DNA from: Cloeon dipterum
Taxonomy: Eukaryota > Arthropoda > Insecta > Ephemeroptera > Baetidae
Direction: 5' to 3'
Assembly: GCF_949628265.1 (NCBI RefSeq)
Contig: NC_088787.1
Location: 36,444,844 to 36,508,843, forward strand
Length of the DNA stretch: 64,000 nucleotides
Shown: positions 7,895-48,570 of the stretch, in pieces
Layout of the letters: every line of letters starts with the position of its first letter
Position numbering within the stretch: the first letter of the stretch is position 1
Translations under genes and position numbers: made by a program
The notes under the pieces: generated by a model
What the model was told of the DNA's origin: nothing
What the model saw: the letters and a program-made list of their open reading frames with translations, nothing else
Databases searched by the model: none

Positions 7895-7914
7895 CAAAAA
7901 AAGGATAATTAGAA

Positions 7915-28762: not shown

Positions 28763-28808
28763 AGTAGTGATATAGCACCGATTTAACCACCACAAAGCAT
28801 TTGATTCC
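28763..28808 (+). repeat. Polinton terminal inverted repeat, left
   Basis: 46 bp identical to the complement of 48571-48616. Beyond it both ends become C-rich or G-rich and drift apart. Polinton repeats are usually hundreds of bp, so this one is short. Confidence 0.9.
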
Positions 28809-29119
28809 GCACATAACCCCCCCCCCCACATAACCCCCCCCCCCCCACAGCCTCCTCCCCCACCCCTTACCCTCCCATTACTCCTGCCTCCTCCCCCACC
28901 CCTCCCCCACCCCTCCACCACCCCTCCACCACCCCTTACCCTCCCATTACTCCTCCCCTTCCCATCTCACCTAACACCTCCCATAACCCACCCTCTCAAC
29001 AACCAATACTTCAGGTACAATCTTTGTTAGGAATAAATAAGGAAAGTCAAAATCTTACATTTTTAATATTTATTTTATTTTCCTTGGTAAAAACAATACA
29101 CCACAACTTAAACAAAAAA
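28809..29119. other. Poly-C/CCACCC subterminal tract and 3' flank
   Basis: Runs of C and CCCCACCCCTCC from 28811 to about 29000, matched in inverse by the G-rich tract near the right end. The G-rich strand could form quadruplexes. No gene. Confidence 0.6.
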
Positions 29120-29950
29120 TTATTGCATCAAGAGCTTGTGATAATACAATTCACAAAGATTCATCAGATCTGATTCATACATCTTGAATTTAATGTTGTC
29201 AACACAACTAGACGGGTCTTCTGAAAAGCATTTGTCTAATTCCTGAAACTTTGGAAGTGTGCCTTGCATCAGCTTGAGACAAACACGAATATCTGTCAGT
29301 TTCGAAACAAGTACTCCATATTCAAATTCAGTTAAACAAAAGTTGCATTTTCCTCGCAACTCACGCAAAATTATGTTTTTACCATCTGCACTCGTTTTCA
29401 CATGGAAATTATCAGTTTTGCCATTACGTTTTGTTGTAAAAATAGTTTGAATCTCTGATGATTGAAGAAACATAAGTGCCAATGTATCAACAGTAATTTT
29501 CCATTTATCATTTTTTTCACAAAGCATCATAACATCGCTATTATAACATCTTCTTAGCACAATCGTTGGTGCAATCATTTCCATCCTCTTGTTAATATAT
29601 CCAGCAGTCCAGAGACGATTGCTTATCATTTGTTCCATCACCTCCATTAGATAAGAGAAGTCCTGCGGTGTGATCTCAAACTTGTCAGAAGCATAAGAAG
29701 TCCACGTAAAATATAGCTCATCATTGTCAGGTTTGATTTTAAAAAATTTTGTTTGACCACCTCGTGTTAAAAGCGATTTGATATAAAAATGATCTTTACT
29801 AAGATCCGATAAAGTGTCTGGCAAAAGCTCATAACTTTTCTGCTCTTCTTTGTCCCAAATACAAATTTCAATGTCTGACCCGCCACTTTTGTAGAAGACG
29901 CACACATCTTTTTCATCACCGATTGAGAACGTCTTCTGCAGGTGAGCCAT
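29120..29950 (-). CDS. Polinton protein of unknown function, possible paralogue of the small right-hand ORFs
   Basis: I chose the ATG at 29948-29950 (MAHLQKTFSIGDEKDV) rather than the longer frame because a TATA box, GTATATAATC, lies about 40 nt upstream; product 276 residues. The N-terminal part alternates strands and charged turns (DVCVFYKSGG, IEICIWDKEEQKSYELLPD) and is followed by helices (QDFSYLMEVMEQM). The pattern recurs in the ORFs at 41971, 42565 and 47854. It vaguely recalls PC4-type ssDNA-binding folds, but I have no specific motif. No signal peptide or membrane segment. Confidence 0.6.
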   Translation of the reverse strand: MAHLQKTFSIGDEKDVCVFYKSGGSDIEICIWDKEEQKSYELLPDTLSDLSKDHFYIKSLLTRGGQTKFFKIKPDNDELYFTWTSYASDKFEITPQDFSYLMEVMEQMISNRLWTAGYINKRMEMIAPTIVLRRCYNSDVMMLCEKNDKWKITVDTLALMFLQSSEIQTIFTTKRNGKTDNFHVKTSADGKNIILRELRGKCNFCLTEFEYGVLVSKLTDIRVCLKLMQGTLPKFQELDKCFSEDPSSCVDNIKFKMYESDLMNLCELYYHKLLMQ

Positions 29951-29985
29951 GATGCAGACTGTGTGATGAGGGAGAAGAATCACGA

Positions 29986-29995
29986 GATTATATAC
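29986..29995 (-). promoter_or_regulatory. TATA box of the 29950 gene
   Basis: Minus-strand GTATATAATC about 40 nt before the chosen ATG, a spacing repeated at other Polinton genes. Confidence 0.55.
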
Positions 29996-30087
29996 AAAAA
30001 CCAAACATGTTGGAGGGGGTGGAAGAGTGGTTTACACTATACTCTCAAAGTGATTCACCATTACATTTCGTGGAACCTTGGATGGAT

Positions 30088-33000
30088 TTACTTCCCGCTT
30101 TCAAACATGACCTCCAATTTATAATGACCATAAGGAAGTGTGGAATGATCTGGTAAAATACAACGTTTATCATCATGAGGGTCTAAAGCTAATTTACAAA
30201 TTCTAGACGTATAAAACTTATGATTAACAGAGGTAATATTAGAAAAAGTAACAAATTTTCTCTTGTTGTTAAGTACACAGTCAACAAAATCAGCATGAGT
30301 AAGCTCGTTCTTTATTGAACATTTTTTAACTCCTTTAGCTTTTTTATACTCTCCATCGTCACAAATATAGGAGTACATTTTTGATCTGGGTGCTACAAAC
30401 TCACTAATCAAGGAACCCTTCAATTCATCCTTGAACTTACCATACACCTTTGAATTATCAGGTGAATAGAGAGGATGCATTTTGGGAAGTGAACTAAAAT
30501 CTAAATGTTGGGATATCTGTTTAAACTCTTTGTTAAAATGGTTTGTTTTAAAAGCAGCAATAACACCATCTGTATCAATTAAGCATAGCGAAAGTCGGTC
30601 ACCAAATTGTTTTTTCAACACATCATAATAGAACCAGAACATATAATATTTGGACCAATAAAGAATATTCATGCCTACGATAATAGGTCGATCCATGACA
30701 ATAACTCCTTTTTGCATTTCTACAATAGCCATCCCATGACCGATAATTACTCTTTCTATAAAAGTAGGCTTACGAACTAGTTTCAAAAGAGCACGTTCAT
30801 CATTGACAAGTTTAATTTGAATGTGTTTACGAACGTTTTCTATAGTTCGACCAAAAACTGAGTTAGTGAACAATTTATATAGATTCTTTTCACAATCGGT
30901 TTTTGCTGCAGAACGAAATTCCTGCATGATCTCTACATATGGTTTCATAAACGGCTTTTGTTTGAATGAAAGGACTCTTATGAATATGTACAATTTTAAC
31001 ACCTAACTGCTTAGCCTGCTGCACTAAAGCGAGGGAAGCCTTACATTTGTATTTGGGAAGCAGATCCAAAATTAATTTGGGAAATTTTGAGGTTTCATTA
31101 GGTATTTTGTGCACGGGGAAAGGTGGAAGACAACTTAAAAAGTTATGACATTCTCTAGGATAAACACAATCGAATTCAAGAACAAAACCTGTATCTCCCA
31201 TAGGACTGATATTCTCCCAATCAAAATGTTTCGGATCAATGAATTTATATTCAGCATAAGGTAATGGATATGTCATCATACAATAGCTGTATAAAGCTGT
31301 ACAGTCAAAATAGCCTATTTTCTCAGTATCAGTAGCTTTTACATATCTACGACCGATCTGACAGATTCCACCAGCTATCCCCGATTCAACAAAATCAAAT
31401 ATTTCATCGTCTGAAATCAACTCTATTTCTATCTTCGTTAATTTTGTCATTAAATTGATGGACAAATGGCTAATTGTGTAGAAGTGACATAAATCAATTT
31501 TGAATTTTTCATAGATAATCGAGCGGAAGAATAAAAGAACATCAAGCATAATTAGTACGTCTTTTTTTAGATACACAGAGCAATAGTCACGCATTGTTGT
31601 ACACTTGAATGCTTTCCAATGTGACTTGGCAACCTCGTAATCCGCAAAAGACAAAGATTCCATGCTTAAATCATTATAAAAATGTTTGATAGCAGGCAAA
31701 TTTGGATAGTTCAATTGCTCCAAATCAGTCAAGAATTTATATGGAAAAATGCCTTTCCCCGTAACATGCTCGTGAACATCAACAGGAAAATTTCTCTTTG
31801 TTTCTATGAATGATTGATTCGGAAGCGCAGAGGCCAATGAATCCAATGATTCACTGAAAAATTTATATAAATCTAAGAAACGTACTTCAACACCATTCAT
31901 AATAATCGAAAATGAAATGTATCGCTCACGTGTGGATGGTATTACATTTACTCTGAAATTTCTTCTCAAAAACATCAAAACCAAGAAATGACCATCATAA
32001 TTACAGTTATTGTGAATGTATACAGGTAAGAAATGAATTCTTTTCATGTTTAAATTACATCTGGAGCAACACGCACCATTGCGTACATTATTTTGTGACA
32101 AACAGTGATCGTGTTCTCTGCACTTAACATTAACATCATCAAAAGCAATACCACAAAAATAGCAATTAGTCATAGCATCAAATTCAATCTGCTGACTTTC
32201 GCTCATATGTATCGGAAATTCTCTCTGCAACACCTTTTTAATTGGTTTCGTGATTTTGTCAAAATATCTGATAATCTCATTTTCGAGTTGCTGCTCGTTA
32301 GACATGTGATGGTAATAACCAAGGGGCACATCTGGAACTTCTTCCCGATCATATATTGAATGTAAAAAAGCTCCAAAGGCAAAAGGAAGGTGATGTTCAG
32401 TCACGACTGAAGAACTTGTTTCTGGTTCTCTATGAGTTGTGTGGACAGGAACCAATAATGCCTCCATGTCAAATGCCACCAGAAATGGACATCGAACAGC
32501 AGAGCTATATTTTTCAAATTTGAACACGGAAGCTTGTTTTGGCATTTTAATACGTGTGTATTTCCCAGTTGGACATCGAATTTCGTGATCAGTTAATTTT
32601 GATTGCGTATCAAAATTCATCAAACATCTAACGCAAATAAACATCTTGTGTTGTCTTTTATTGACCATGTTAGAAACAAGACGACTAAGGTCGGATATCA
32701 ATGTCCAGTGTGCACTTTCCCCCCTGACTATGAACAAAAGGTTAAAATGATATTGCTTCTTTTCGAATGAAGTCCTTACAGGAAAAACTTGACATTTCTC
32801 ATCCAACGTAAAAATATTGATCGAAACGTGAGAGTTTTTCCGTAGAAAATTTTTAACTTCCTTTACCGAGACAGGAAACTCGATGTTCCAGTTAAATAAA
32901 TGCTGCAACCCAGCTTCAGCAGCAACGTTTACACGACCATATCGTGTTTTGTACAAAGATGCGAGAATACAATGTTTGAAACACTCTACACAAGTTTTTT

Positions 33001-33300
33001 GTTTGCATCTGAGGTTGATGACAGCTCTTTTGAATGCAATTTTTGTGGGTAATGTTAGGTATGAACTACCAGGAACAAATCTATATTTACTAACTCTAAT
33101 CTCTAAGCACTTGACACGAGCAAAAGTAAACCCACTTCCTTTAAATGTGTAAAGTTCGCTCTCTTCAATCATCTTTGCAAAGTGTCTTTCCACATTTTGT
33201 GTAATATCGTTAACGTTAAAGAGAGCAGAATTTGCTGATTTGAAATTAGCATCCTTGGTTACATCTAGCGGATTATTGTAAACGCAAACCATAAACAAGT
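30088..33300 (-). pseudogene. polB: Polinton DNA polymerase B, frame-disrupted
   Basis: Family B polymerase of the protein-primed type, which would copy the element. In order: N-terminal region, exonuclease-like FDMEALL, a Cys/His cluster (NCYFCGIAF, REHDHC, CCSRCN) common in Polinton polymerases, motif A YFDCTALYS near 31.3 kb, motif B KLFTNSVFGRTIEN near 30.87 kb, and motif C LIDTDGV near 30.57 kb. The first two thirds (to about 30,960) and the last third lie in different frames overlapping at 30,890-31,002, so the open frame is broken between motifs A and B. The open frame continues upstream of 33300 to about 33480 without an ATG, so the true start or a 5' exon is uncertain. Full length would fit the usual 1,000-1,200 residues. 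Confidence 0.9.
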
Positions 33301-33615
33301 TGAATTTAATAGATTTTTGAAGAATTAACTCTGCTTCTAATATTTTAGCAACTCTTTCACTGTTTGTTGAGAGAAACGATTCGATTGAGATTTGTTTTTC
33401 TTTATTTTGAATGAGATAGTCCGTAAAGTTTCCACCAAATATTGATTTTCCAACGAAAATGTTATCAGTTCAATTTGTAGCTCAGGTTTCTTCTGCGAAT
33501 CAAAATTTCTTCACTAGGAAGATCGATCACGCTATCACCATCGATGATGTTTCTTCCACTGCTGGGAAGATCGATGTTGATTGCATCAACACTCTCTTCA
33601 CCACCGGCCTGCATC

Positions 33616-36566
33616 TCATATGCGTGGTTTCTTCTTGCGAGTAGCTCCTGAAGCGGTATTTATCCCATCGGACGATCTCCCACTCCTTGTTGGAAGATTG
33701 GGTGGGTCCTCTGATGCTCTACGCAGATTGTCGGGTCCGCCAACCTTGAAAAATAAAAATAAACACAAATTTAACATAAATCCTTGAATATTAAATAAAT
33801 CCTCGAGTATTACCTGTGTTTCATGGTGTAGCAGGTTTCCGGGTCCAGGTACCTTGAAACAAAAAAAAAACTAGTATGAGTAATCATTTATAAAAATCGC
33901 TTGATATAAACTACAGCTTCCTGGTGAGCACTGGGTCCACCAACCTTGAAACAAAAAAAGAGTATGAGAAACATTTAAAAACTGGTTTGATATGAAATAC
34001 CACTTCCTGGTGAGCACTATTTCAGCAACCTTGAAACAAAAAATAACCAGTATGAGTAACAGATTAAAAATCTTTTGATATAAACTACCATTTCTTGGTG
34101 AGCACTGGGTCCAGCAACCTTGAAACAAAAAATAAATAGTATGAATAACATTTAAAAAACTGGTTTGATATAAACTACCACTTCCTGGTGAGCACTAGGT
34201 GCAGCAACCTTGAAACAAAAAATAAATAGTGTGAGTAACATTTAAAAAAAATCGCATGATAAAAAATTACCGCTTCCTGGTGAGCACTGGATCCAGCAAC
34301 CTAGAAACAAAAAATAGTGTGAGTAATCACTTACAATTATCACTTGATATAAACTACCGTTTCCTGTTGAGCGCTAGGTCCGGCAGTCTTGAAACAAAAA
34401 AAATATTATGAGTAATCAACATAAGAGATCATTTCCTTGGAATAACCACCGCTTCTTGGTATGCACCAGTTCTGACCACCTTGTAAAAAGAAATTAGTGT
34501 TATTTGTAAAATCATTGAAAAAAGTTACCTCAACTCGACGTCGTGGATCACGTGATTCGAAAACCTAAACAAAAAATTATAATTAGTGTCAATTATAAAA
34601 TTCAGTGTAAACAATACCAATGCTTCGTTTGAAGAATCAGAATCCAAATCCTTGAAAAAAAAACAGTTAAGGTGAATAAATTGAAAAAGTAACTTACCAC
34701 AACCAGATCTTCTTCTGATCGACTGAGTTGCTGCAAAATATTTACCATAACTTAAACCATTACATTATATTAAAATAAAATACATACACGTCTGCTTCTT
34801 TCGAAGAGCTCCAATTCAACAGCTGCCAGATCATAGTTGAAGAGATCATCCAAGTCATCCTCAAGAGAGACTTCCTCAACATCGAGAACTGCTCGCGGAC
34901 CGGTCGTGTCAATGTAGCGGAAGTAATTCGTGTACGCCAACATCGCATTCCTTTGCATCGTGTAGCGAGCTATCGGATTGAATTGATAGCTCTGTGTCAC
35001 AGTGCTCATGTGTCGCTCAAACACGTTCATCTGCCCAGTCGAGGTAGAGACGATATCGCTGTGCGCTCGAATGTTCAGCTGGTGATGCACTTGTTGTCCC
35101 ACTCGCAATTGAATGGAGTTGAGGGTCCTGGCACTATTCACAGTGATCTCGACAGGGTTGAATCGCGCCAAATTCAAGTGACCAAAATCACAGTGGCTCT
35201 GCGCATTCGGGGACATGTTCTGATGAAAGAGTCTTCTGCGCTCTGAAAATTTAATTAGTATCACATTTTTTAAACCGAATAATTTTTTACCTTCCAACAG
35301 CTGCTCCATGCTAGAAGCTCTAGGATCTGAGCAAATTTGTCTCAGATGACGCATTAGGCGCTGTCCAACTTCCTCACGGTCGACACGGAAACCAGCAGCA
35401 TTAGTTTCCAGAACTATCAGAGAATTGTCGACGACAGATTCTTCAGGTTCAGGCACTGAAAGAAAGTTAATTAATGTAACAATTAAAATTATTTAATAGT
35501 AAATTTACCAATTGCTAAACTGGCTGGGAGAAGGAAGCACTGGTTGGGAGTGGCGAATGCTCTACAAAGCATACATCTCCCAACATACCCGGTATGAAGA
35601 CACTCAAGACACGCCGGATGTCCACAGTGGATGACAGCGGAAGCACTATTCACAAGACAGATGCAGCAGATCGATGAGAAGCTCAATCTATCCCGAGGCA
35701 CTGCTATCTCCCAATCGTGTTCAGCTCTGCTCATCATACTGTGCATGCTCACGTCACGTCGAAAATGGAACCTTGCGTGAATTTCAGAACAGTCTGGACT
35801 GATAGCAACATGCATCTGCGCTATCCTCCGTGGATCTGGAAAAATATTTGGAGAAAATTTGTAAAAAAATTTAAAAAAAATGGAAAATTGTAAAAAATAA
35901 AAAAATAAAGAAAGAGGATTTAAAGAAAAAAAGAGAAAAAGGATTAAAGAGAAAGAAAGGAAAGAATTAAAATGAACAATACAGAAAAATAATAGAGATA
36001 ATAAAAAGAGCAATTTGAAAAAAGTAAAGAAAGAGAAAAATGAAAAAAGAAAAGAAAAAAAATAAAAATAAATAAAGTAAAGAAAAGAAGAAAGGAAATA
36101 AATAAAAATGAACAATACAGAAAAGAAATAGAGATAATAAAAAGAGCAATCTGAAAAAAGTAAAGAAAAAAAAGTTTTCAATAAATAAAGTAAAGAAAAT
36201 TAAAAATTAAGAGAAATAGAGTTAACAGAAGAAACAAGAAAAAGAATGAAAAGAAATAAAGTATAGAATAGAAAAATTAAAAAAAAGGAAAAGCAGAAGA
36301 CCAGAAAAGAATTAAATGGAAAAATTAAAGAAATGAATAATCTTACCAAAACACGACAGGAACTTGTTGCAGCAGTGGAATATTATTCCCGCTACATCGA
36401 AGGATGTGACGTATGGCACCCCACCAGCTCGATAAATCGCAATAGCAGCGCTGCTGCTGAGTCCGAGCGATCGAAAACCCTCAAATACCAAAGCCGCGAG
36501 ACCACGATTGTTTCTCCGGTCTCGCAGTTCTTGATTGACCAACCCGATGAATCCGGGAAGGTTTAT
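33616..36566 (-). CDS. RING-finger protein with a C-terminal microexon array (Polinton cargo)
   Basis: Four ordinary exons (36347-36566, 35509-35835, 35291-35455, 34788-35242) join in phase, then 12 small ones: 34698-34730, 34618-34650, 34529-34564, 34450-34479, 34358-34387, 34271-34300, 34179-34208, 34089-34118, 34001-34029, 33915-33944, 33814-33852 and the last, 33616-33744. Exon 2 has a C3HC4 RING (CCICLVNSASAVIHCGHPAC...CMLC), pointing to E3 ubiquitin ligase activity. The 30-nt exons each encode one decapeptide such as VAGPSAHQEM. The protein ends in a basic TRKKKPRI. All microexons are multiples of 3 except 34001-34029 (29 nt), which must be skipped or breaks the frame. The first exon has no clear ATG; the start is probably upstream, near 36.6 kb. 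I know of no matching family. Confidence 0.7.
33814..34479 (-). repeat. Tandem microexon-intron repeat, about 85-115 bp period
   Basis: Units consist of a pyrimidine-rich acceptor (TTTTTTGTTTCAAG), a 29-39-nt exon, a GTAGTTTATATCA-type donor and a short AT-rich intron. The internal units are clearly derived from one another, so exon number grew by tandem duplication of an exon with its intron. Confidence 0.85.
35836..36346 (-). repeat. A/G-rich low-complexity intron
   Basis: About 500 bp of nearly pure purine (AAAGAAAAAGAG-like) on the plus strand between the first and RING exons. On the transcribed strand it is a long polypyrimidine tract. The Phe/Leu/Ser-rich frame here is an artefact. Confidence 0.8.
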
Positions 36567-36725
36567 CTGGAAAAAAATTAATAAACAATCTGCAAAAAAA
36601 GAATTGACATTTTAAAAATTTTCATCACACTTCAATACTCTGCAACAATTGCAAGAACCACTCCAGTTTGTATATAAGGATACGAAACAATCGACTTTGA
36701 CTCAGTCGTGATCGACAAAAAAAAA
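36567..36725. promoter_or_regulatory. Divergent promoter region of the Polinton
   Basis: Separates the leftward RING gene from the rightward morphogenesis block. It contains TATATAAGG at 36671-36679, about 47 nt before the ATPase ATG. Confidence 0.55.
36671..36679 (+). promoter_or_regulatory. TATA box of the ATPase gene block
   Basis: TATATAAGG followed by the ATPase ATG at 36726. Confidence 0.6.
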
Positions 36726-37373
36726 ATGTTTTTCCAATTCAACCATCCAACCACGATACTAATTAATGGCAACTCTGGTTGTGGAAAGACCTACCTAACA
36801 CTATCAATCCTGTCAAACACAGATAAATATTTTGACAAGGAAATACATGAGATATTGTATTATTACCATTTGTACAATCCTTGTTTCTCCGATTTTCCAA
36901 AAATTAAATTTATTCAAGGATTACCACAAACGCTGCCTGATGACAACTTGGATCGGATTTTGGTTTTGGATGATAGTCACGAAGCTGGAATCAGTTTAGC
37001 TGCCAGTATGTTTGTTCGAGATTCCCATCACAGATCAATAACTTGTATATATATGCTGCAATATTTATTTCTAAACTCAAAACTAAGAATAGTTAGTTTA
37101 AACGCAAAACATATCATATGCTTCAAGAATCAGAGAGATGGAATGAGTTTTAACTCACTGGCCAGACAACTACCCTACAACACACAGTTCATCCAAAGCC
37201 TATATAAGGAGGCAACTAAATCAAGATATGGATATTTGGCTTTAAATCTAACCAACGATTGTCCTAATCATTTGAGATTCAGTACGAATATAACTGCTGA
37301 ATACCCAACATATTTCATCGAAGCGGAAAGTTACTATGGGTTGCCAATTGAAATTAATGAAGTCCTTGAATAA
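36726..37373 (+). CDS. Polinton A32/FtsK-HerA-type DNA-packaging ATPase
   Basis: ATG at 36726 chosen (MFFQFNHPTTILINGN); the frame upstream has no ATG. Walker A is NGNSGCGKTYL near residue 15, Walker B is RILVLDDSHEA near residue 82, and a conserved CIYMLQYLF-type sensor region follows. The length of about 215 residues is normal for Polinton/adintovirus packaging ATPases, which pump the genome into capsids. It heads the rightward gene block and overlaps the next frame by a few bases. Confidence 0.85.
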   Translation: MFFQFNHPTTILINGNSGCGKTYLTLSILSNTDKYFDKEIHEILYYYHLYNPCFSDFPKIKFIQGLPQTLPDDNLDRILVLDDSHEAGISLAASMFVRDSHHRSITCIYMLQYLFLNSKLRIVSLNAKHIICFKNQRDGMSFNSLARQLPYNTQFIQSLYKEATKSRYGYLALNLTNDCPNHLRFSTNITAEYPTYFIEAESYYGLPIEINEVLE

Positions 37374-37383
37374 AATCTTAAAC

Positions 37384-37644
37384 ATGTCCTCTGAGGAAAG
37401 ACGAGAATTAATATCTCACGTGGATAAAAATTTAATAAGGGCTTTGTGTGAAATCTTGTACAATATCAGATTGAAAAATATAGATTTAACTCAGTCCGAA
37501 TCCAGCTTGATAAGGGAAAACACCAAAATTTGCAAACGCTTGCTTCGCAGAGGTGTTTCTTGCTCCAAGAGAAAAGAGTTGTTGTCGAGATTAGACGATA
37601 AAGTGTTAAATTTGTTGAAAAAGAAGATAAAATATGTCATTTAA
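37384..37644 (+). CDS. Small conserved Polinton helical protein
   Basis: 86 residues from the ATG at 37384 ([20 protein letters not shown]). All-helical and basic, with an [20 protein letters not shown] stretch and a C-terminal cluster [15 protein letters not shown]. Short proteins of this pattern often sit beside the ATPase in Polintons and adintoviruses; function unknown. Its end overlaps the next gene by 11 bp. Confidence 0.6.
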
Positions 37645-38488
37645 AAAACTATATCTTATAGACGAACCGAGTTTAGAGCTGTTTAAGCAGTGTAAAGAAA
37701 CTGAGCTGCATAAAGAAACTGAGCAGCGTAAAGAAAATGAGCAGCGTAAAGAAACTGAGCAGTGTGATGAACCGAAATTGATAGATTATGAAACATTTTA
37801 CAATGCTTTCATGACCGATCATTCACCGGCAGAGCCGACAACAGAGCCGACAACAGAGTCGACAACAGAGTTGACAACAGAGTTGACGGCAAAGCCGACA
37901 ACAGAGTTGACAACAGAGTCGACAACAGAGTTGATGGCAAAGCCGACAACAAAGTCGACAACAGAGTTGACAACAGAGTTGACGGCAAAGCCGACGGCAA
38001 AGCCGACGGCAAAGCCGACGGCAAAGCCGACGGCAAAGCCGACGGCAAAGCCGACGGCAAAGCCGACGGCAAAGCCGACGGCAAAGCCGACGGCAAAGCC
38101 GACGGCAAAGCCGACGGCAAAGCCGACAACAAAGTTGACAACAGAGTTGACGGCAAAGCCGACACCGGAGTCGATAACAAAGCCGGCGGAGTCGATATCA
38201 AAGCCGGCGGAGTCGATAACAAAGCCGGCGGTAACAGAGTTGGCAAAAGAGTTGAAACCGAACTCGATCACCGCCGGAGAGGGCCCCCCGCCCACGGAGC
38301 CGCAAACACACAGACCGCTAACCCGTCAGCAAACACAACAGCAAGTTAAAGCCGATATTGTGAAACGACTTGATAAACTACCGGTCGGGTTGAGAGAACG
38401 GGCAAAAAAAGTGTACAAATCGATTCAACTGTCTGGAAAATTTAAATTAAAGGGATCGGCCATTTATTTTAATAAAAAGCGAATTTGA
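37634..38488 (+). CDS. Thr/Pro/Lys repeat protein of the Polinton, interrupted by a stop
   Basis: 284 residues: an N-terminal region with four KETEQ-type heptads (residues about 17-42), a long low-complexity middle of TTEP then AKPT tetrads (about residues 60-185), and a C-terminal globular piece starting [16 protein letters not shown]. The C-terminal piece resembles a short domain found just before the integrase in other Polintons. The TGA at 38486 is followed in the same frame by about 41 more sense codons to 38613, ending just before the integrase ATG, so the protein was probably longer. The repeat tract is recent and homogeneous (12 bp, ACGGCAAAGCCG-type). Confidence 0.7.
37981..38130 (+). 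repeat. 12-bp minisatellite encoding AKPT
   Basis: Near-perfect GACGGCAAAGCC tandem repeats inside the preceding gene, keeping frame. Antisense frames (for example GFAVGFAV) are shadows. Confidence 0.9.
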
Positions 38489-38616
38489 GACGATTTGTAC
38501 TCTCACATTTTACACTATATAAACCCCGAAGGTAAACTGATAGCCGACGATAAAGTATTCAAAGCAGCACTGCGTGACATCTCTCCAAAAAAGTGGGATA
38601 AACTCGACTTTTGAAC

Positions 38617-39549
38617 ATGGAGAACGAATTGAAAGAGAGCTACTACGATTTAAAATCTCCGTCAGCCTATACGAGCAAGACCCGATTAATTAAACAATTT
38701 AAAAATAAATACGACAAACGAGATATAGTAGATTGGGCTAGCGGACAAGACAACATAACAAAGTTCGCGTTGAGAGTTGCAAAATTTAAAGGAAATCCTA
38801 TGTTTGCGTGGCGCTTGGACGCGGTGTGGAACATGGACTTGATGGACGTTCAAAAACTTCAGAGGGAAAACAAGGGATTTAGATACATTTCCGTAGCCGT
38901 CGACGTTCTCAGTCGTTACTCTTACGTGTTTCCCTTAAAGTCAAAATCAGCGACGGATGTTTTTGACGGATTATCAAAACTATTTAAACGAGCCAAGCCG
39001 ACATTCGGACTTTATGTCGATGCGGGTGCAGAGTACAATAATAAAAAGGTTAAGGATTTGTTAGAGTCGCTGAACATTAAGCTCATGATCGCTAGGAATG
39101 AAGAAAAAAAAGCTTCGATATCTGAAGCAAGAATCAAATTAATTAAAAATCGATTGTATAAATATATGAATCATAAAGACACCAACGTATGGTATAACGT
39201 TATAGATAAGATAAACGACGGTATCAATTCGTCTTACAATAGAAATATTAAAATGACTCCTGCTCAAGTGCGAGAATCAAAACAATTTCAAAAAGATGCG
39301 TTTCTCAATTTATATTCCGGTTATTTAATGAAAACCGCAGAGAAACCGGTATACAACATTGGCGAAAAGATGAGATTGCCTTATTATAAAAAGGTCTTCC
39401 AAAAGAAGTATCAGCAGGGGTGGACAGATGAGCTATTTCACCTTTATAAAGTGTTACCTAAAAAATATCCTTTATATAGAGTTGAAGACTCTGACGGCGA
39501 GCACATACTAGGCTCATTCGCAAAGCAAGAGCTCGAGCCCGTACGATGA
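38617..39549 (+). CDS. Polinton retroviral-type (rve) integrase
   Basis: ATG at 38617 (MENELKESYYDLKSP). Catalytic core: first Asp in WNMDLMDVQK, second in LYVDAGAEYNN, and Glu in SISEARIKLIKN, giving the D,D(about 59),E(about 36) pattern. A C-terminal chromo-like/SH3-like region follows (WTDELFHLYKVLPKKYPLYR). The typical N-terminal HHCC finger is not obvious. The enzyme would insert the element and make the 6-bp duplications seen here. The stop overlaps the next start (ATGA). Confidence 0.9.
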   Translation: MENELKESYYDLKSPSAYTSKTRLIKQFKNKYDKRDIVDWASGQDNITKFALRVAKFKGNPMFAWRLDAVWNMDLMDVQKLQRENKGFRYISVAVDVLSRYSYVFPLKSKSATDVFDGLSKLFKRAKPTFGLYVDAGAEYNNKKVKDLLESLNIKLMIARNEEKKASISEARIKLIKNRLYKYMNHKDTNVWYNVIDKINDGINSSYNRNIKMTPAQVRESKQFQKDAFLNLYSGYLMKTAEKPVYNIGEKMRLPYYKKVFQKKYQQGWTDELFHLYKVLPKKYPLYRVEDSDGEHILGSFAKQELEPVR

Positions 39550-39920
39550 TACTGATCGCGAAATCCGATTCTTTCACAAACACTTATCCGAATACACACA
39601 AGAAATTTACTCTTCTCTTTCCGAGAGAAATAAAAGTGAATAAAATTTCTCTTTTGGATGTTAACTTGCCCGAAATATCACCCGACAGTTTAGTATATAT
39701 AGAGGTGACGGACTTGAAGAGTTCGTTTTTATTCGATAGCTTAAAACCGATCGTATATGCAGGTTTCGCAAATAGCGAAGGAAAGATAAAAATAAAAAAT
39801 CCGCAATTTGTAGAATTCGAAGTGAATCTGATTCAAGAAATTACTTTTAGCATAAAAGCAAATTTCATCAAAGAAGAAGGGAAAAAGCAAATTTCTCAAC
39901 TCGTATTCAAGTTAAAATGA
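39546..39920 (+). CDS. Putative minor capsid / penton-like protein (short)
   Basis: 124 residues, beta-rich, beginning MILIAKSDSFTNTYPNTHKK with a KFTLLFPREI...ISLLDVNLPEI pattern that recalls the N-terminal strands of Polinton minor capsid proteins. It lies between integrase and major capsid genes, linked by ATGA overlaps on both sides, as expected for a coupled block. It is much shorter than a usual penton (about 250 residues), so it may be truncated or a different structural protein. Confidence 0.5.
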   Translation: MILIAKSDSFTNTYPNTHKKFTLLFPREIKVNKISLLDVNLPEISPDSLVYIEVTDLKSSFLFDSLKPIVYAGFANSEGKIKIKNPQFVEFEVNLIQEITFSIKANFIKEEGKKQISQLVFKLK

Positions 39921-40153
39921 TACCCGACAGCAACGACTGTCTCTCGATGACCTCGGCATTGCTTGCGCCGACGGTCAAGATCATTAAAAAAGTTGTAAAG
40001 GTGATGAAAAAGAAAAAAAAAGTGAAGGGAGCTGGGCTAAGAAAGAAAAAGCACGTTATCGGAGCAGGACTGAAGAAGAAGAAGAAGAAGAGAAAAACTG
40101 GATCTCGATTGTATATAAGAAGGGAAAAACCGAAAAAAGAACAGTTGTTTTGA
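39917..40153 (+). CDS. Small basic core-like protein with adenain-type cleavage motifs
   Basis: 78 residues, about one third Lys/Arg, C-terminal half almost all basic (KKKKKKRKTGSR). It contains VKGAG and VIGAG, which fit the (small hydrophobic)-x-G-x-G site preferred by adenovirus-type proteases, and such a protease is encoded 1.2 kb downstream. By analogy with adenovirus pX/pVII-like proteins it may bind packaged DNA. Start ATG overlaps the previous stop. Confidence 0.6.
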   Translation: MIPDSNDCLSMTSALLAPTVKIIKKVVKVMKKKKKVKGAGLRKKKHVIGAGLKKKKKKRKTGSRLYIRREKPKKEQLF

Positions 40154-40167
40154 ACATTCCGAGCAAT

Positions 40168-41391
40168 ATGGAGCAAGTTAAAAGTCAAGAGTCCATTTTG
40201 CAAAAATATCGTCCTTTAAACGCGATCACGAGAGGGGGGAAAATTATTTTTAGCATTCCTAGACAGGAAGATTATTCGCTTGATCTATCTTCTGTGAAAC
40301 TATTGGTTAAATTTAAAGTAGTTGGTAGCGATGGTGCTAAAATAGTACTCTCACCTACAGACTATTTGTCTTTTGAAAATATTCCCATATCAAGTCTCTT
40401 CTCTAGACTAGATTTGTACATGAACGGAACGCTAGTTTCGGGCTGCAACCTTAACCACTACATTTCCTATTTTTCTCGATATTTATCCGATGACGAGCAT
40501 TTTAAAAAATCACTTTTGAGCTGTGGTTACTTCCAAGAAGTTGGGGGGAAAAAAGGAGATAAGCAAGAATACGGTTTGAAAGAGAGAGGTAAAACTATTA
40601 TCGATGGTGCAGAGGTGTGTTTCATTGGAGATTTACAAAATTCCATATTTAAGCAAGAAAAGCTTCTCCCCCCTAGCGTAGAGTTTAACATTGTCCTCGA
40701 ACCGAACCCAGACAAGTTTTTTCTTTTGACCAATAGAATCGATAATCCGCAAGTACACATAACGAGGTGTGAAATTCTAGCGAGACATATTAAATTAGAT
40801 AATCCCGTTAAGAACAAAATGCTAGAAATTTTAAATAGCTCATTCTACGAGCTATCATACAATCGAGTTATAGCCAAAACAATTAACATTCCAAAGGAGA
40901 CGACAGCTTACAGCAACCCAAACTTTATTCTCGGAGCTCCACCACAAAAGATTTTACTTTTTTTCGTGGAAACGGATGCTTTCCTTGGAGATTACTCTAA
41001 ATCAGGGTTTTCTTTTCAACCGGAAGGGCTAAGTAATTTTAAATTCACGTACAACAACGTACAGATACCAACGTACAGTCTCCCATTTGACTTTTTGAAC
41101 GACGACATTACCGAGCTTTATGATTATACCATTTCACAGCTCGGGCTGGAGAAGAGAGGAATAAATATCGGTTTAACTCCTGCAATGTATAAAACGGATA
41201 ATTTCTTTTTGGCACAGAATCTGGTGAAGGATGTTTCCGTAAATGCGTTTAGTACGCCTCACACACCCGGAATTGTCGGTTTAGATCTACAATTCACACC
41301 TGCAACGACGAATTTATTAACGCTTGTCGTCTTAGCCCAGTACGACGATTCGAAAATACAGATAAGCAACAAAGAGATTAGAGTGTTATGA
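40168..41391 (+). CDS. Polinton major capsid protein candidate (double jelly-roll, F54H12.2-like)
   Basis: 407 residues from the ATG at 40168 (MEQVKSQESILQKYRPLNAI). The N-terminal pattern ITRGGKIIFSIPRQEDYSLD with a following LSSVKLLVKFKV, and FSRLDLYMNGTLV further on, matches the first strands of Polinton/adintovirus major capsid proteins. Length is slightly short for the family. It sits between a basic core-like gene and the protease, in the usual morphogenesis block, and its stop overlaps the protease start (ATGA). Confidence 0.7.
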   Translation: MEQVKSQESILQKYRPLNAITRGGKIIFSIPRQEDYSLDLSSVKLLVKFKVVGSDGAKIVLSPTDYLSFENIPISSLFSRLDLYMNGTLVSGCNLNHYISYFSRYLSDDEHFKKSLLSCGYFQEVGGKKGDKQEYGLKERGKTIIDGAEVCFIGDLQNSIFKQEKLLPPSVEFNIVLEPNPDKFFLLTNRIDNPQVHITRCEILARHIKLDNPVKNKMLEILNSSFYELSYNRVIAKTINIPKETTAYSNPNFILGAPPQKILLFFVETDAFLGDYSKSGFSFQPEGLSNFKFTYNNVQIPTYSLPFDFLNDDITELYDYTISQLGLEKRGINIGLTPAMYKTDNFFLAQNLVKDVSVNAFSTPHTPGIVGLDLQFTPATTNLLTLVVLAQYDDSKIQISNKEIRVL

Positions 41392-41828
41392 ACAGCTCAG
41401 AGGTGGAAAAATTGATTCCCTTTGGAAAATTCTTATCACTTGACGAGCTGGAGCGAGAGAAACCAACGTTTCCAGCATACTACGTGATCAATTTGTCGAC
41501 AAAAAAAATTGGGCACTTTGTAGGTTTAGTTTTGAAACAAGAAAATGAAAAAATTCTTGCTCTGTATAATGATAGCCTCGGTCTAATGCCTTGTGTTAAA
41601 CAATTAGTTGATTTCATCAACAAATATGCGCAAAAAGTAATTTGTAACAAATATCCCCAACAGAGTGAGGTTAGTCAAGCTTGCGGTCCGATATCGATTT
41701 TGTTCTTGAATCACATTAGACAAGGTGAAGACGCGATCTTGTTTTACAAGCAATTGTTATTCGATCACGGAACCAACGAGGAAATCGTTAAGCGAAAACT
41801 AAGCGAATACAAAAAGTCAAGGTTTTAA
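41388..41828 (+). CDS. Adenain-like cysteine protease (peptidase C5 type)
   Basis: 146 residues. The catalytic series is present in order: His in KIGHFVGLV, Asp in LYNDSLGLMP, Gln in NKYPQQSEV, Cys in SQACGPISILFLN. This is the virion-maturation protease of Polintons, adintoviruses and adenoviruses, which cuts capsid precursors late in assembly. It is slightly short but complete. Candidate sites are seen in the basic protein at 39917. Confidence 0.85.
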   Translation: MNSSEVEKLIPFGKFLSLDELEREKPTFPAYYVINLSTKKIGHFVGLVLKQENEKILALYNDSLGLMPCVKQLVDFINKYAQKVICNKYPQQSEVSQACGPISILFLNHIRQGEDAILFYKQLLFDHGTNEEIVKRKLSEYKKSRF

Positions 41829-41925
41829 TTCTTGATTCACATCACGCAATGTGATGGTGTGACCTTGTTTATAAAAAAATATGGAATGACCGTGAAACAA
41901 GTTTGTTAAGCACAATTTCCGTGAA

Positions 41926-41933
41926 TATAAAAG
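41926..41933 (+). promoter_or_regulatory. TATA box of the 41971 gene
   Basis: TATAAAAG 45 nt before the ATG at 41971; this favours that start over the longer frame from 41903. Confidence 0.6.
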
Positions 41934-41970
41934 CCAAGGTTCGACAAGTGCGACTATCACTTTGCAGAGA

Positions 41971-42526
41971 GATGTTTGAGCAAAAGGTATATAATTTGAA
42001 CCCTAGCTGCACAAAGAGAATTGTTGTTGGGTTGGAATTGCAAGAAAAGTTGACACCAGTTATAATTTTGAAAGATGGAAAAAATAACATTTATCTCACA
42101 CCATCAATTTGGCAAGCGCTTTTAACCGAGCGTAAGCAAATCGAAAACTGCTTCGTTGAAAATAGCAGCTTCGCATTCAGATACGAAGACAACAGCTTGT
42201 ATTCTATATTATCATCTTCATTTCGTGAAGGTCAGTTATTATTGTACATTAAGCAGCGGGAAAAAAGTCTATCAAGTGGGAATTATATTTATATGGCTAA
42301 AACGTCTGTTCAAACTCTATTCACCATGTACGAATTAATAAATTCACACCTCTTGCATTTGATGTCGATGGAAGACGAGGTTAATAAATTGTATACCGTT
42401 TACACGAATCTAAAATGCAAATTTGATATATTGAACATAGCAGATAGCATTGATCAAAAATTGTCTGCTCACGAATTCCTACTCCATTCTTCCATTAACA
42501 GCAAGAACTGGGGGGGAAATGAATAA
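41971..42526 (+). CDS. Polinton protein of unknown function, small-ORF family member
   Basis: 184 residues from MFEQKVYNLNPSCTKR. Segment order is strand-rich (RIVVGLELQEK, PVIILKDG), then a Trp-containing helix (LTPSIWQALL), then a helical C-terminus (VQTLFTMYELINSHLLHLM). The same order occurs in the genes at 29950, 42565 and 47854. No known motif. It may be a DNA-binding or structural accessory protein, but this is a guess from fold pattern only. Confidence 0.55.
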
Positions 42527-42530
42527 AAAG
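42522..42530 (+). promoter_or_regulatory. TATA-like box of the 42565 gene
   Basis: AATAAAAAG overlapping the previous stop, about 42 nt before the ATG. Confidence 0.45.
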
Positions 42531-42564
42531 CAGCCTCGCTCACGGAAAACGACTAAACGTTAAG

Positions 42565-42894
42565 ATGCTTTCAACGAGATCGTTCGCTCTTACTAGCAAC
42601 AGAGATGTCACAATAGGACTTGATGCTGAAACTAAAGTTCCCTGTATATTTTTATACGGGTTTTCAACATTTCATCAAAAGGTCAAGCTCGAATATTCAG
42701 AGCTGCGTCATTGGATTGAAAACAATGGATTCTACGGTCTGTTTAACGACACCTTTACTATGCACAGAGCTGATATTGTGAAGATTAAAAACAAAAGCGG
42801 TATATTTTATGTAAACTCGTATGTTTTTGAAAACCTTGCACTCTTACTACCCATCATGGACCTCTATGTATTCAAGATAACCGAGAACTTGTAA
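42565..42894 (+). CDS. Small Polinton protein of unknown function
   Basis: 109 residues from the ATG at 42565. SFALTSNRDVTIGLDAET then PCIFLYGFS and a LEYSELRHWIENN helix repeat the layout of its neighbour at 41971, suggesting ancient duplication. No signal peptide, membrane segment or catalytic motif. Confidence 0.55.
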   Translation: MLSTRSFALTSNRDVTIGLDAETKVPCIFLYGFSTFHQKVKLEYSELRHWIENNGFYGLFNDTFTMHRADIVKIKNKSGIFYVNSYVFENLALLLPIMDLYVFKITENL

Positions 42895-43066
42895 AAATGT
42901 TTTGGAAGTGGTAAAAAAAAAATAAAAAAAAACTAACCCAAAAAATGATTTTCATTTACTTTTCACCTTACATCACAAAGAATATTATATATCAATATAA
43001 AGATAGACTATTAGAATATTTTAAATACAGAGCTTTCATACAAAACAAAAAAACATATATAAATTA

Positions 43067-43366
43067 GAGTTTGGTAAAACGACAAATCAATTTCAATTGC
43101 TATGTGAGAATTTATATAGATTTAAAAACAATTTAATTTTAAAATAATACATTCAACTGCGCAACAATATTACATAACTATAAAAAATTAGATTGACATG
43201 TTAGATAAAAAAAAAACATTGCATTTAAATAAATATTATTTACGCGTGGCAAGTGCAGTTGAATGTATTATTTTAAAATGCAATTGCTTTTAAATCGATA
43301 TAAAAACTCGCAAAGCAATTAAAATTGATTTGTTGTTTTACCAAAAACTCTAATTTAAATCTGTTG
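43067..43366. mobile_element. Fold-back MITE-like element
   Basis: AATTAGAGTTTGGTAAAACG at the left is the near complement of the right end (about 43,330-43,366). The inner parts also pair (TAATACATTCAACTGC with GCAGTTGAATGTATTA). About 300 bp, no coding capacity, AT-rich. It lies inside the Polinton, so it inserted later or is part of its regulatory region. Confidence 0.6.
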
Positions 43367-43702
43367 CGGTTCGTTAGAAAACCTTGCATTTAAAAATAAC
43401 ATTTGAAAAGTTACTTTAATGCATGATTGAAAAATGCTTCAAACACGCCGGTTGTTGAGTGAGCGCTGAATGAGCGAGCCGTGCGAGCAGATCGTGCGAG
43501 CGAGCCAAGCGAGGCAGCGATCACGCTCAGGAATTTAGAAAGCTAGAGAGTTGACATAGGCGCCATCTGTTGTGAGTGAACAACAAGTAGGAATGATTTA
43601 AGTTGGTAGCATTACTTAGCAGCCACCTGTTGCGAGTGACAGAGAGTGCTGATTTTAAGTTGGTAGCAAACGGTAAACAAGCAGCATCACTTCGTTTTTG
43701 CA
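43367..43702 (+). promoter_or_regulatory. Upstream region of the Polinton membrane-protein gene
   Basis: A GC-rich stretch (GAGCGAGCCGTGCGAGC, about 43,460-43,540) is followed by two diverged copies of a roughly 60-bp block containing CTGTTGnGAGTGA and AAGTTGGTAGCA (43,560-43,612 and 43,620-43,670). Possibly promoter or 5' UTR. No canonical TATA. Confidence 0.4.
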
Positions 43703-46317
43703 ATGGGGATAGACCGCTTGCGATTGTATTCGCTAATATTACTAGTTGCTGCCAATCGCATTGCAGCTCTCGAATTTCTGCACGAATCCGGTCATGTCAG
43801 CTGCGTCACTCCCACAAGTGAAAGATTGGCGTTCACGCCAGCTTTTGCTCTCACCTCAACGAAAATCGGCCAGGTATGTGTCATTTTTTTCTTATTAGAA
43901 TTTTGACATTAATTTTAATTAAAGGTTGACATTCCCGGTTGGTTGGAAACAGACCTGATGAACTGTGATTACGACATAGACGCATATCGATCATCCCGAC
44001 TAGCCAATGGTAAATACACATTAATTTTTCCATGCATTCCCTCAGATTATATTATTTGTTATTCAGAAATGTTCACGGTCAAAGTGGATACACCGCTTCA
44101 ATGGTATGCAGAGGCTGCGTACTTGGAAACTAGACACCTAATGGCTTGGATTCGAATTGGCGTCGCAAAAAGGCTTGTGTTTGATAGCAATGTGAGTTTC
44201 TGCTGGTTTAAAATGACATAATATCCACTTTCTATTTTTCCAGACTCGCATTACTCTACAGAAACGCTCAAATGCAGTCATCATTAGCGTGAATGGATCA
44301 GCCAGAAGCGTTGTTGCCAGCAGCAAGCAATTGACAATTGGCAAGGATATGTCAGCGGCTTACGGTAAATGATAATTATTACAGCACATTGCTTAAAAAC
44401 AAAAAAGAAATATTTTTTACAAAAGAAATGAAATAAATTAATATAGATTCGGTGTTGGAGTGGCGTCCGTACATATCGTCAACTGCTATCGTGCAAAGTG
44501 AGAAAGCTGGCTGTCTCTTTTTCCAAGCTACTGACAAGATTGATGGTGTGAGCATTGAGCATCCAGATGGCTCATTGAAAATGTTCACGGTAATATTTTT
44601 TAAAGCTTATATTTATTGAAAATATTAATTAATCTCTGTTTAGAATGAGCTCGTGCTGAACAAACTAGAGATTAGTGTGGGTGTCTCCATGCTGAACGTT
44701 ATCCAGCGTGAGCCCGACAACGACAACTCAATCATTGTCTTCCGAGCTCTCTACGACTGTCAAAATGGTATTTTTCTTGATTAAAAAATTTACTGATTTT
44801 AATCTTGGTCTTTTTCTTTTTAGAAATCTCACTGTCCAACAAAGGAAAGATTACTGGCTGTCAGAACATCACACACAGCACTTCGAAATCAACCCCTGGT
44901 TTGTGATTGAAATCTGCTCTTAACGTTTAAAACTTTCAATTTTTATTTTCAGCTTGTGCCTGCTATATGTGCTCAATTAAAAGTTGCAATTGTCGACCCT
45001 GCCAGAACGTCGGTAAACACGAGTCTAGCGAGAAAGCAAATCACACCACTTCTCAACACACCCCAAACCAAACCACTCCCTCCCTTTCAGCCTACCCGAC
45101 AGAGAATCAACCCCCAGAAACCTCACTGAATTTGGAAACAATCCAAACCACACCCTCCCTTATGTCCATACAGTCAATTAGTCAAACACCTCTCCCAGAC
45201 CTTCCCGAAAGCAACTTTGAACTAGAATCAATTAAAACAACACCCCTTGAGATTTCCCCAGAGAAAATTTCACCCACCAAATCAATCACTCACACCAAAA
45301 GTGGTGATTGTTTGTCATGTGAAATAAGCTCTTCGAGCATACAGATTGTAAACTTTCCCCTCCCCACACACCCCTTAGAACCTTTAACTACAACCCCTTT
45401 AGTCATGTCAACAGCATCTACCACCCCAGTATCAACACATAGCACGACCTCACCCACTGAAGACAACAATGTCAACATTGCTGCTGGTAAAATTTTTGAA
45501 TGAATTTTTTGTGATTAAGTAAATGTCTGAAAAATAAATTTTTAAAGGTTTAGGTGTGTTTGCACTGCTCGTGTGTGCCGGCTATGCCTGCATTCTGTGC
45601 GCATGCAAACATCTACGCAGAATGCGAGGTGCCAGAGTCCACAATGGTGATTGGGACTATCGCACAGGACATGAGCAGATTCAACTAGCCCGTCTACCAG
45701 AACTCTTGCCTGCATCTCAACCCCGACCAGAACCGCAACCCCTGCCAGCGATTGATGAAGAAACAGAGCCGACAGTGGGTGTTGATCCCCCATCTGCCAA
45801 CGCTTGTTCTCCGTACGTGCTTACCTTTGTCGAAGAAGAACAATGTAAAAATTTACAGATCTGAACCTCGGTAAATTAAATGTTTTTTGGTGATGGTTTT
45901 TAATGTGAATATTTTTTTTTGGTGATGGTCTTTAATGTGAAATTTTTCTAACTTGATTGAAAAGGACTTGAGCAGATACCTCAACCCCTGCTGGCAATGC
46001 AACCCATCCCAGAACCACAACCCTTTCCAGAACCGCAACCCCTGGCTGAACAACAACCCATGTCAGAACCGCAACCCCTGTCTGATCAACAACCCATTGC
46101 AGAACCCCAACCCTTGCCAGAACAACAACCCATTGCAGAACCCCAACCCTTGCCTGAACCCCTACCTCCGCCAGCTGTTGAGAGTGATGACGAGACAGTG
46201 CCAAAAGTGCTAGCTGATCCACCATCAGCTAATATTCACTCTCCGTTCGTCCTTAACTTTGATGTAGAAGGACAAGGTAAAAAAAGACGAAAAATTTTCA
46301 GAGCTGACACTCGGTAA
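43703..46317 (+). CDS. Predicted type-I membrane glycoprotein, spliced, carried by the Polinton
   Basis: Exons 43703-43873, 43925-44009, 44067-44191, 44244-44364, 44447-44589, 44644-44767, 44824-44898, 44953-45486, from 45548, and about 45964-46317 follow GT-AG rules. Exon 1 starts with a signal peptide (RLYSLILLVAANRIAA) followed by LEFLHESG. Then come a beta-rich ectodomain of about 230 residues, a Cys-rich knot (CACYMCSIKSCNCRPC), a long Ser/Thr/Pro stalk likely O-glycosylated, a transmembrane helix (GVFALLVCAGYACILCAC), and a cytoplasmic tail of PEPQPL-type repeats whose last two exons are duplicates (PPSAN...SP.VL.F). Exon 2 (ending YRSSRLANG) and intron phases match the gene fragments at 21.8 and 55.4 kb. 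Function unknown: captured host receptor or a surface protein of the element. Confidence 0.7.
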
Positions 46318-47499
46318 CTTTTTTTGTTTTTTTGGTGGCGGTCTTTAATGTGCAATTTTCTTACTTGATTGGCAACTTTTTACTTATTATAACTAGATTT
46401 AGTTTTGGTGGTGGATCACTTTCTTACTGTAATGATTGATTTGAACACCAATTTTTTAGATTATTAATGCATAATTCTTAGAGGAAGAACCAAGCCCACC
46501 TTTTGTTCCACGACGCAGCATGAGACTGAAGACAAAAAAAAAACCCCTTCCAAAATAGCTATTTTTTGTTCACTTACCAAAACAACTTCGGGAAGACGGT
46601 TCTCTTCTGCGTTAGGGTTGCGGACCTCAAAGCCATTCATGGTGAAAACCTCACGGACACTTTGACTGACCACACCGTCGCAGATTCGATACGCGCAAAG
46701 ATATTGTGCTTTGGACTGATACGGGTTAGGAAAGTCAGAGACTTTATACCATTTTGAAAGGTTCCCCACCTCACTATTTTTGACGTCTTCTCGAACCTTC
46801 CTGATTTCTTTTTTTGACTGAGATGAACTAATACGGTCTTTGCAGCTTAATATAATTCCTAATTTTATTAAATAGAAAACTTAGTTTTCAGATTGTAAGC
46901 ACTGTACTATTGATTTGAATGCTAGTTTTTACAATAAATAAATATGAATTGATATAGAAAATGCATTTTATTTAAATTATTAACAATGTTTGTATTTAAG
47001 TGTGTGCTTTGTTCTTATTTTATTAAATTAGATGAATATGAATAAAATATGGTTTTTTTAAATTTTAACCCTGTAAATCGACTTGGTGTGTACTTTTACA
47101 ACTATTTCATATTTTATTAAATTAAACAACTATGAATAAATAAAAATCGCTGTTTTTAATTTTAATCACTACCTTTTGAATGAAACCTCAGGAATTTTCT
47201 AAAACAGTTTTTAGACTAATTTATATCAATCATCTCATAATAATTTCTATTTTGATACTGTTTAATTTTTAAGACAGGAATATAGTTGAATGAACTGAAA
47301 ATCTGATTTGGAACATGGAAAGGAACAGTAAATTAATCTTTCTTGAATACAGTCTATATTGTCAACACATGATGAGATTTCATTTTTGAGATATTATTAC
47401 ATTCAAATGTTCAAGTTTTCTCAAATTTGAAAATTTATATCTCTAGATTCTTCTAGAAGGATAACTGTTAAATATAGAGGTTAGTACACTACATTTTTG

Positions 47500-47751
47500 C
47501 TGTACATCAGATTTGCCCGAGGTTTGGGCGTTTTTTTTAATACCATATAAGATCAAAACTTGTTGTACATTAGATTCGCCTGAGGTTTGGGCGTTTTCAT
47601 TCCATCTATGATCAATCTGGTTGTTTGACATGTATGTAATTAAACAAGTGCAAATCTCTTTATCGCACATTAGATTATTCAAGGTTTGGGCGTTTTAATT
47701 CCATTTAAGATCAAACAGGTTATTTGACGCGCAATTTAACTAGTGCAAATC
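47500..47751 (+). repeat. Three direct repeats (iterons), about 90-100 bp period
   Basis: Each copy contains GAGGTTTGGGCGTTTT or AAGGTTTGGGCGTTTT, preceded by ACATnAGATT and, in the last two, followed by ATTCCAT...GATCAA and AGTGCAAATC. They end about 40 bp before a TATA-like box, so they may be binding sites controlling the terminal gene or an origin. Confidence 0.7.
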
Positions 47752-47791
47752 AGTACCTTAAACGGAACATCTTCGGAGGTCATCAAATTTG

Positions 47792-47800
47792 TATAAGTAG
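47792..47800 (+). promoter_or_regulatory. TATA-like box of the 47854 gene
   Basis: TATAAGTAG between the iterons and the ATG at 47854. Confidence 0.45.
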
Positions 47801-47853
47801 CTTAAGCAGAGACGAAGACATGTCATACTGTTCTGAACGTTTCAACAGCCAAG

Positions 47854-48321: not shown

Positions 48322-48570
48322 AGAATATATTTACAATTAAAATAATTTGTATTGATTTAATTTTTAAAATATTTAAGTTGGTGTATTGTATTGTTTTTAC
48401 CCTGAAAAATAAACAATTATAAAAATGGATATGTCTGAATTTTCTGTCTTTATTCTTAACAAAAGTTGGAGTTGAACTGGTGTTTGAATATGGGAATGGG
48501 ATGGGGTATGGGACGAGGTATGGGAGGGGGGGGGGTGGGTGTGGGGGGTATGTGGGGGGGGGGTATGCGT
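48322..48570. other. Right subterminal region of the Polinton with poly-G tract
   Basis: AT-rich 3' flank with an AATAAA signal near 48408, then a G-rich tract (GGGGGGGGGTGGGTG, about 48517-48565) mirroring the left end. Confidence 0.6.

Follow-up and report, generated by a model that had tools for sequence, protein, structure and literature searches.

In this study, we found a RING-finger gene of 16 predicted exons, among them an array of 11 microexons, within a complete Polinton in the genome of the mayfly Cloeon dipterum. The stretch of DNA that was analysed, here called the window, comprises 64,000 nucleotides of contig C2, one of ten contigs in a genome of 190 Mb. The gene runs from 36,566 down to 33,616 (minus strand) and consists of four ordinary exons, the microexons and a last exon (Table 1). 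The array itself is a confirmed observation. We lean, if only slightly, towards reading the gene as that of a likely Polinton-borne ubiquitin ligase with a tail assembled by splicing from the eleven phase-0 microexons and the last exon, in which microexons of a length divisible by three could be skipped without a break in the frame.

Table 1. Features of the RING gene and its host element, with positions counted from the first letter of the window.
Feature	Positions	Strand	Description
Complete Polinton	28763..48616	.	19,854 bp, bounded by inverted terminal repeats; CCCGGG outside both ends
Exon 1	36347..36566	-	220 nt, coding, without start codon; CAG acceptor just upstream in four lineages
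Exon 2	35509..35835	-	327 nt, contains the RING finger
RING finger	35561..35668	-	Cys/His ligands invariant in four lineages; placed by hand
Exon 3	35291..35455	-	165 nt
Exon 4	34788..35242	-	455 nt; conserved post-RING domain, no named family
Microexon 5	34698..34730	-	33 nt
Microexon 6	34618..34650	-	33 nt
Microexon 7	34529..34564	-	36 nt
Microexon 8	34450..34479	-	30 nt; donor GTGGTT; absent from NCBI model P0001
Microexon 9	34358..34387	-	30 nt, decapeptide
Microexon 10	34271..34300	-	30 nt, decapeptide
Microexon 11	34179..34208	-	30 nt, decapeptide
Microexon 12	34089..34118	-	30 nt, decapeptide
Microexon 13	34001..34029	-	29 nt here, 30 nt in the sister
Microexon 14	33915..33944	-	30 nt, decapeptide
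Microexon 15	33814..33852	-	39 nt
Last exon	33616..33744	-	129 nt, stops just before pPolB; treated differently in P0001
Tandem repeat	33842..34415	-	exon-plus-intron units, 6.4 copies of ~88-90 nt

The placing of a RING-finger gene inside a true Polinton, made in a preliminary description of this DNA, was borne out by the element's polymerase, integrase and inverted repeats and by the RING ligands. Pfam matches identified a type B DNA polymerase (DNA_pol_B_2, E 9.1e-30) on one side of the RING gene and, on the other side, an RVE integrase domain (rve, E 2e-10); the intervening ATPase-like frame had P-loop matches below Pfam cut-offs. Open frames are present where jelly-roll capsid proteins are expected, with no Pfam match above cut-off. 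A second insertion, the sister (L011, on contig C5), is 98.7% identical to the window Polinton over 9.6 kb aligned. Both copies have inverted terminal repeats and a 6-bp target-site duplication, as which we read the CCCGGG abutting both ends of the window copy; the sister has TTCACA on both sides instead, and we read the two as separate insertions of one recently mobile element. Beside the ATPase, at 37631–38488, the window Polinton has a second repeat-rich gene with long 12-nt repeats (Ala-Lys-Pro-Thr), and other short repeats occur at roughly the matching place in the diverged copies L012, L013 and L015. Elsewhere in the window, GC-rich 18-nt minisatellites with similar flanking frames are found in opposite orientation at 23531–24537 and 53020–53759, and two long frames outside the Polinton (5834–9447) appear by eye to be NACHT-like and ankyrin-like.

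The core introns of the RING gene, which join exons 1 to 4, are in phase 1, and those of the tail are in phase 0 and 47–69 nt long. Re-derivation from the sequence reproduced the 11 microexons of 29–39 nt that had been described, as well as the finding that ten of them are multiples of three. The exception is the 29-nt exon 13, up to and including which the microexons from exon 5 onwards are entered in phase 0; if used, this exon would shift the frame, a condition peculiar to the window copy. In the sister, which differs from the window at 12 of 3,285 alignment positions over the gene stretch, every one of the 11 microexons has a length divisible by three, and the joined exons encode 548 residues before a single final stop. 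The seven microexons originally noted as encoding related decapeptides are exons 8–14 (34,479–33,915), which form seven related units of about ten codons, most of them within the tandem repeat. The array does not directly follow the RING exon as first described, since exons 3 and 4 (165 and 455 nt), which went unmentioned there, intervene.

A start codon was not found for exon 1, whose protein is 48–57% identical to those of the three diverged copies. It is preceded by an acceptor, and the first exon would be located upstream, perhaps opposite the ATPase gene (36566–36870). In three of the four lineages, the sequence upstream has an ATG that immediately precedes a GTA donor, but this was rejected as the start because its distances from exon 1 differ (300, 767 and 153 nt) and the stretch is antisense to the ATPase. 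Intron 1 of the window copy (35836–36346) is 511 nt long and mostly repeats, versus 48–68 nt in the other three lineages. Beyond the opposite end of the gene, an in-frame stop separates the start of pPolB from its remainder (33440–33620), and the sister differs there.

Genome searches with exon 4 and with exon 2 each returned five places, these being the window, the sister, L012, L013 and L015, while none of the RING gene's exons was found in L014, a degraded ATPase copy. The proteins of exons 1–4 align end to end, with 39, 47 and 42% identity to the window for L012, L013 and L015, respectively, and the core introns have the same places and phase in all four lineages. The preliminary description had suggested a search for the array in other Polintons of the same genome: the tails of L012 and L013 are modelled as multi-exon, and L015 has no such tail as we read it, the modelled tail exons numbering 12 in the window, 12 in L012, 4 in L013 and none in L015. 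The L012 tail has 11 internal exons of 39–201 nt and a last exon, all in phase 0, and several of its exons are mutually related (VDGSSA type), whereas the L013 tail has three internal exons and a last exon, likewise in phase 0. By eye, the window, L012 and L013 all have tail exons with AGPS or AGSS, which possibly represent an old exon family. Two protein searches (4796 and 7997 candidates, the latter being those that shared most words) and a search of viral contigs identified no relatives outside Cloeon, within a reach that extends to relatives sharing short words.

Gene models at NCBI agree with the arrays of two of these lineages. A protein search with the gene core had one match, the uncharacterized protein LOC135937606 (P0001), at 100% identity. 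This is the window gene, with 10 of the 11 microexons, including the 29-nt exon 13, and with exon 8 missing; the earlier proposal that exons of this symmetric array can be skipped without breaking the frame is upheld by a model that already omits one, and the many length variants envisaged there would be a predicted outcome. Near its end, P0001 departs from the last exon as we drew it and seems, by eye, to continue into the beginning of the pPolB region. The L012 gene corresponds to P0002, one sequence of a two-sequence cluster, which NCBI names 'serine-aspartate repeat-containing protein I-like isoform X2'. All 12 L012 tail exons, drawn here before the model was seen, are present in P0002, which has one valine fewer than our model, a difference explained by a donor 3 nt upstream. 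The label isoform X2 may reflect RNA evidence. Both models begin at a methionine within exon 2, and no secretion signal was seen by eye at either start, the gene's true 5' end not having been found.

The arrays were also compared with chance by means of a splice model that was blind to reading frame and trained on the other three lineages, with 40 dinucleotide shuffles of each tail as the control. The window tail scored 138.5 against 37.6 for the best of its 40 shuffles, and the corresponding scores were 93.4 versus 42.4 for L012 and 35.4 versus 21.2 for L013. For the window, nine of the ten internal exons obtained in this way were multiples of three, compared to 80 of 225 in the shuffles. The tail introns shared with the models that we had drawn numbered 9 of 12 in the window, 10 of 12 in L012 and 4 of 4 in L013, although the frame-blind model added an L012 exon of 161 nt and an L013 exon of 197 nt, which are not divisible by three and are absent from ours, and fused two exons of L012 to give a single exon of 141 nt. 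A model built from the 12 core introns alone was rejected, as it returned 4, 0, 2 and 3 tail introns, several of them mismatching; it fails on the tails because core acceptors are CAG or TAG and tail acceptors mostly AAG. The latter was found in 20 of 28 tail introns (window 9 of 12, L012 10 of 12, L013 1 of 4) and in none of the 12 core introns, and the p-values for this difference are too small since duplicated exons are not independent. The 'good splice sites' first ascribed to the microexons need a qualification, as 9 of the 12 window tail acceptors are of the AAG type, a weak one. Base composition separates the two classes of sequence as well, with GC at 0.51–0.55 in tail exons and 0.21–0.26 in tail introns. 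The window, L012 and L013 together have 25 internal tail exons, of which 24 are multiples of three, for which the nominal p of 6e-11 is an overstatement, as exon copies are not independent and the exons were drawn with the frame in view.

An array that is real might still be of no use. In a neutral ratchet, a symmetric exon would be copied together with its intron by slippage within a disordered tail and simply be tolerated, neither the number of exons nor their skipping having any function. We regard this as possible but on the whole unlikely. The five 30-nt exon units differ by 0.193 per site and their intron units by 0.210, so the exon units diverge almost as introns do and the peptide itself is weakly constrained. 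The changes among the five units are spread over the three codon positions (14/18/26), as neutral copying would have it, and both the lack of an array in L015 as modelled and the 29-nt exon in the window copy point in the same direction. Less easily accommodated is the preservation of the frame, to which 24 of 25 internal tail exons and all 11 sister microexons conform while the introns of the array vary from 56 to 62 nt, and neutral copying has also to account for two lineages with long arrays whose acceptors are both mostly AAG (9 of 12 and 10 of 12). That the frame is kept while the letters diverge indicates that exon length is more firmly held than sequence. This combination speaks for constraint on the frame with freedom of the sequence, which a disordered tail would be expected to show, and a neutral reading of it is possible too. 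Structure prediction was uninformative on this point, the AlphaFold models being useless (mean pLDDT 33.5 for P0001 alone and 31.0 with P0002).

The assignment of the core to RING ligases relies on its C3HC4 metal ligands and on profile comparison. A profile of the core matched RING ligases among solved structures, with a best E of 2.3e-6 (best 60 of 151 PDB matches). L015 is the only one of the four lineages to pass a Pfam cut-off; the assembled window core matched no Pfam family and its RING was below every cut-off. On this sequence evidence, the protein would likely act as a ubiquitin ligase on a host protein. The gene might alternatively be a decayed inhibitor-of-apoptosis (IAP) gene, in which exon 1 together with the first part of exon 2 would form a BIR-like zinc fold minus one cysteine and the product, with its RING, would block host cell death. 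Exons 1 and 2 do contain an invariant C-x16-H-x6-C with BIR-like spacing, and real BIR genes, some with a RING-like end, are present in other ATPase-bearing elements of this genome. We nevertheless consider such an origin improbable, as the first BIR cysteine is missing in all four lineages, none of which has a Pfam BIR match, and the best stretches are over or beside the RING even in IAP entries (best 60 of 151 PDB matches). Comparison of the profile with mayfly BIRs gave an hhalign probability of 2.5%, and 8 of 200 column shuffles scored as high.

Of the BIR-bearing elements, L017, L018 and L020 have a distant ATPase (32% identity) and an uninterrupted IAP frame of 409–433 aa (in L018 at ~3.2–4.5 kb, minus strand), which comprises two Pfam BIR stretches and ends in a RING-like one. 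L016 and L019 share this kind of ATPase, with no IAP frame in the fetched stretch, and BIR frames are present in L021–L023 (ATPase 28%). Polymerase, integrase and capsid genes were not found in the BIR-bearing stretches with the window queries. The genome has at least 102 BIR matches, including a dense cluster at G000:C3:7770000-7880000.

Two further explanations are much weaker. A chain of short introns could determine when, or how strongly, the RING transcript or the pPolB gene directly downstream is expressed. The last exon reaches or overlaps the start of pPolB, and TATA-like letters were noted by eye within this exon or at its end in the window, L012 and L013. However, control by length should need no open frames, yet the modelled tail exons are open in frame and GC-rich, and L015 manages without an array, so a regulatory role of this kind seems very improbable. 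That the units of the window are a plain minisatellite, exon-like by chance and unspliced, is scarcely credible even though they do form a tandem repeat, since microexons 5–7 are outside it, the L012 tail has only a 13-nt repeat (4944–4972) and the L013 tail none, and the NCBI models and the shuffle control led us to reject such an artefact.

A further property of the window protein that is relevant to the ligase reading is its composition. Read without exon 13, the product has 538 residues, of which 4 are lysines and 49 arginines, and its longest lysine-free run is 464 residues. The eight other open frames of the window Polinton have 5.6–14.4% lysine and lysine-free runs of at most 84. The L012 protein has 18 lysines and a lysine-free run of 170, and those of L013 and L015 have 15 and 12 lysines, each with a run of 109. 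At the 32 alignment columns with lysine in another lineage the window has no lysine and has arginine at nine. The lysine desert is therefore extreme in the window lineage only. Lysine deserts that retain arginine have been reported for ubiquitin ligases and other parts of the ubiquitin system, and lysines introduced into some of them led to more marking, according to one study (PMC10169902). The long lysine-free, arginine-containing and often disordered stretches described there for the ligases San1, Slx5, RNF115 and RNF165 resemble that of the window protein, although the runs among the rows listed in that source are of 253–275 residues, versus 464 here with the folded core included, and the window protein is carried by a Polinton and is a predicted ligase only. 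Potentially, the lysine desert is an independent hint that the RING protein is an active ligase.

If the gene does encode a ligase with a tail of skippable exons, its mode of action might be as follows. AAG is a weak type of acceptor in animals, and this weakness fits optional exons. The spliceosome would skip microexons with weak acceptors in some transcripts, so that the same RING would be joined to different tails. The RING would recruit a host E2 enzyme, and the core and the probably disordered tail would bind the host protein that is to be ubiquitylated; the ligase itself would escape marking through its lack of lysine. Tandem duplication could then change the tail quickly while leaving the core unharmed; an exon-plus-intron duplication is present in the window lineage and a mutually related set of exons in L012. 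In its fullest form, which we put forward tentatively and hold to be somewhat doubtful, the element would use host splicing to make combinatorial ligase tails from AAG-marked optional microexons, with duplication adding to them and more than one lineage having grown an array of its own, perhaps in a race with a host target. Such an element would rely on many splice events for the production of one protein. The four lineages in one genome, with 12, 12, 4 and no tail exons in our models, allow the birth and use of symmetric exons to be followed directly, in a species that has been proposed as a laboratory model (PMC6446309).

The microexon gene is a known kind of gene, and within the literature searched it is first found here in a virus-like transposon. 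A search pairing 'Polinton' with 'microexon' in that spelling found no publication, and none was among the matches listed for broader topics. In having a type B polymerase, an RVE integrase, terminal inverted repeats and a 6-bp target duplication, the window element is like other Polintons/Mavericks; it differs in the spliced RING gene with its microexon tail between pPolB and the ATPase. In the text covered by a term search, the paper on Polinton capsids (PMC4028283) has no mention of introns, splicing, RING or ubiquitin. Microexon arrays are known from genes of parasites and gall insects that meet another organism, and an array in a virus-like element that replicates itself would add mobile elements to this pattern.

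The likeness to the schistosome MEG genes that was first proposed holds for form: as described in PMC10526429, those genes have many short exons, mostly multiples of three with a few that are not (here 10 of 11 microexons are), and their alternative splicing is regarded as a source of protein diversity. It does not extend to the introns, which are long in MEG genes (100 to almost 5000 bp) versus 47–69 nt in the tail here. MEG proteins keep a signal peptide, and the transposon gene encodes a protein with a RING core. The aphid bicycle genes are, by our comparison, at least as close in form. As outlined in PMC9168663, they too have many small internal exons of one phase, and the proteins they encode change so fast that sequence searches have difficulty in finding relatives; in contrast, their internal exons are in phase 2, versus phase 0 in the tail and phase 1 in the core here, and they are implicated as gall effectors rather than being RING proteins of a mobile element.
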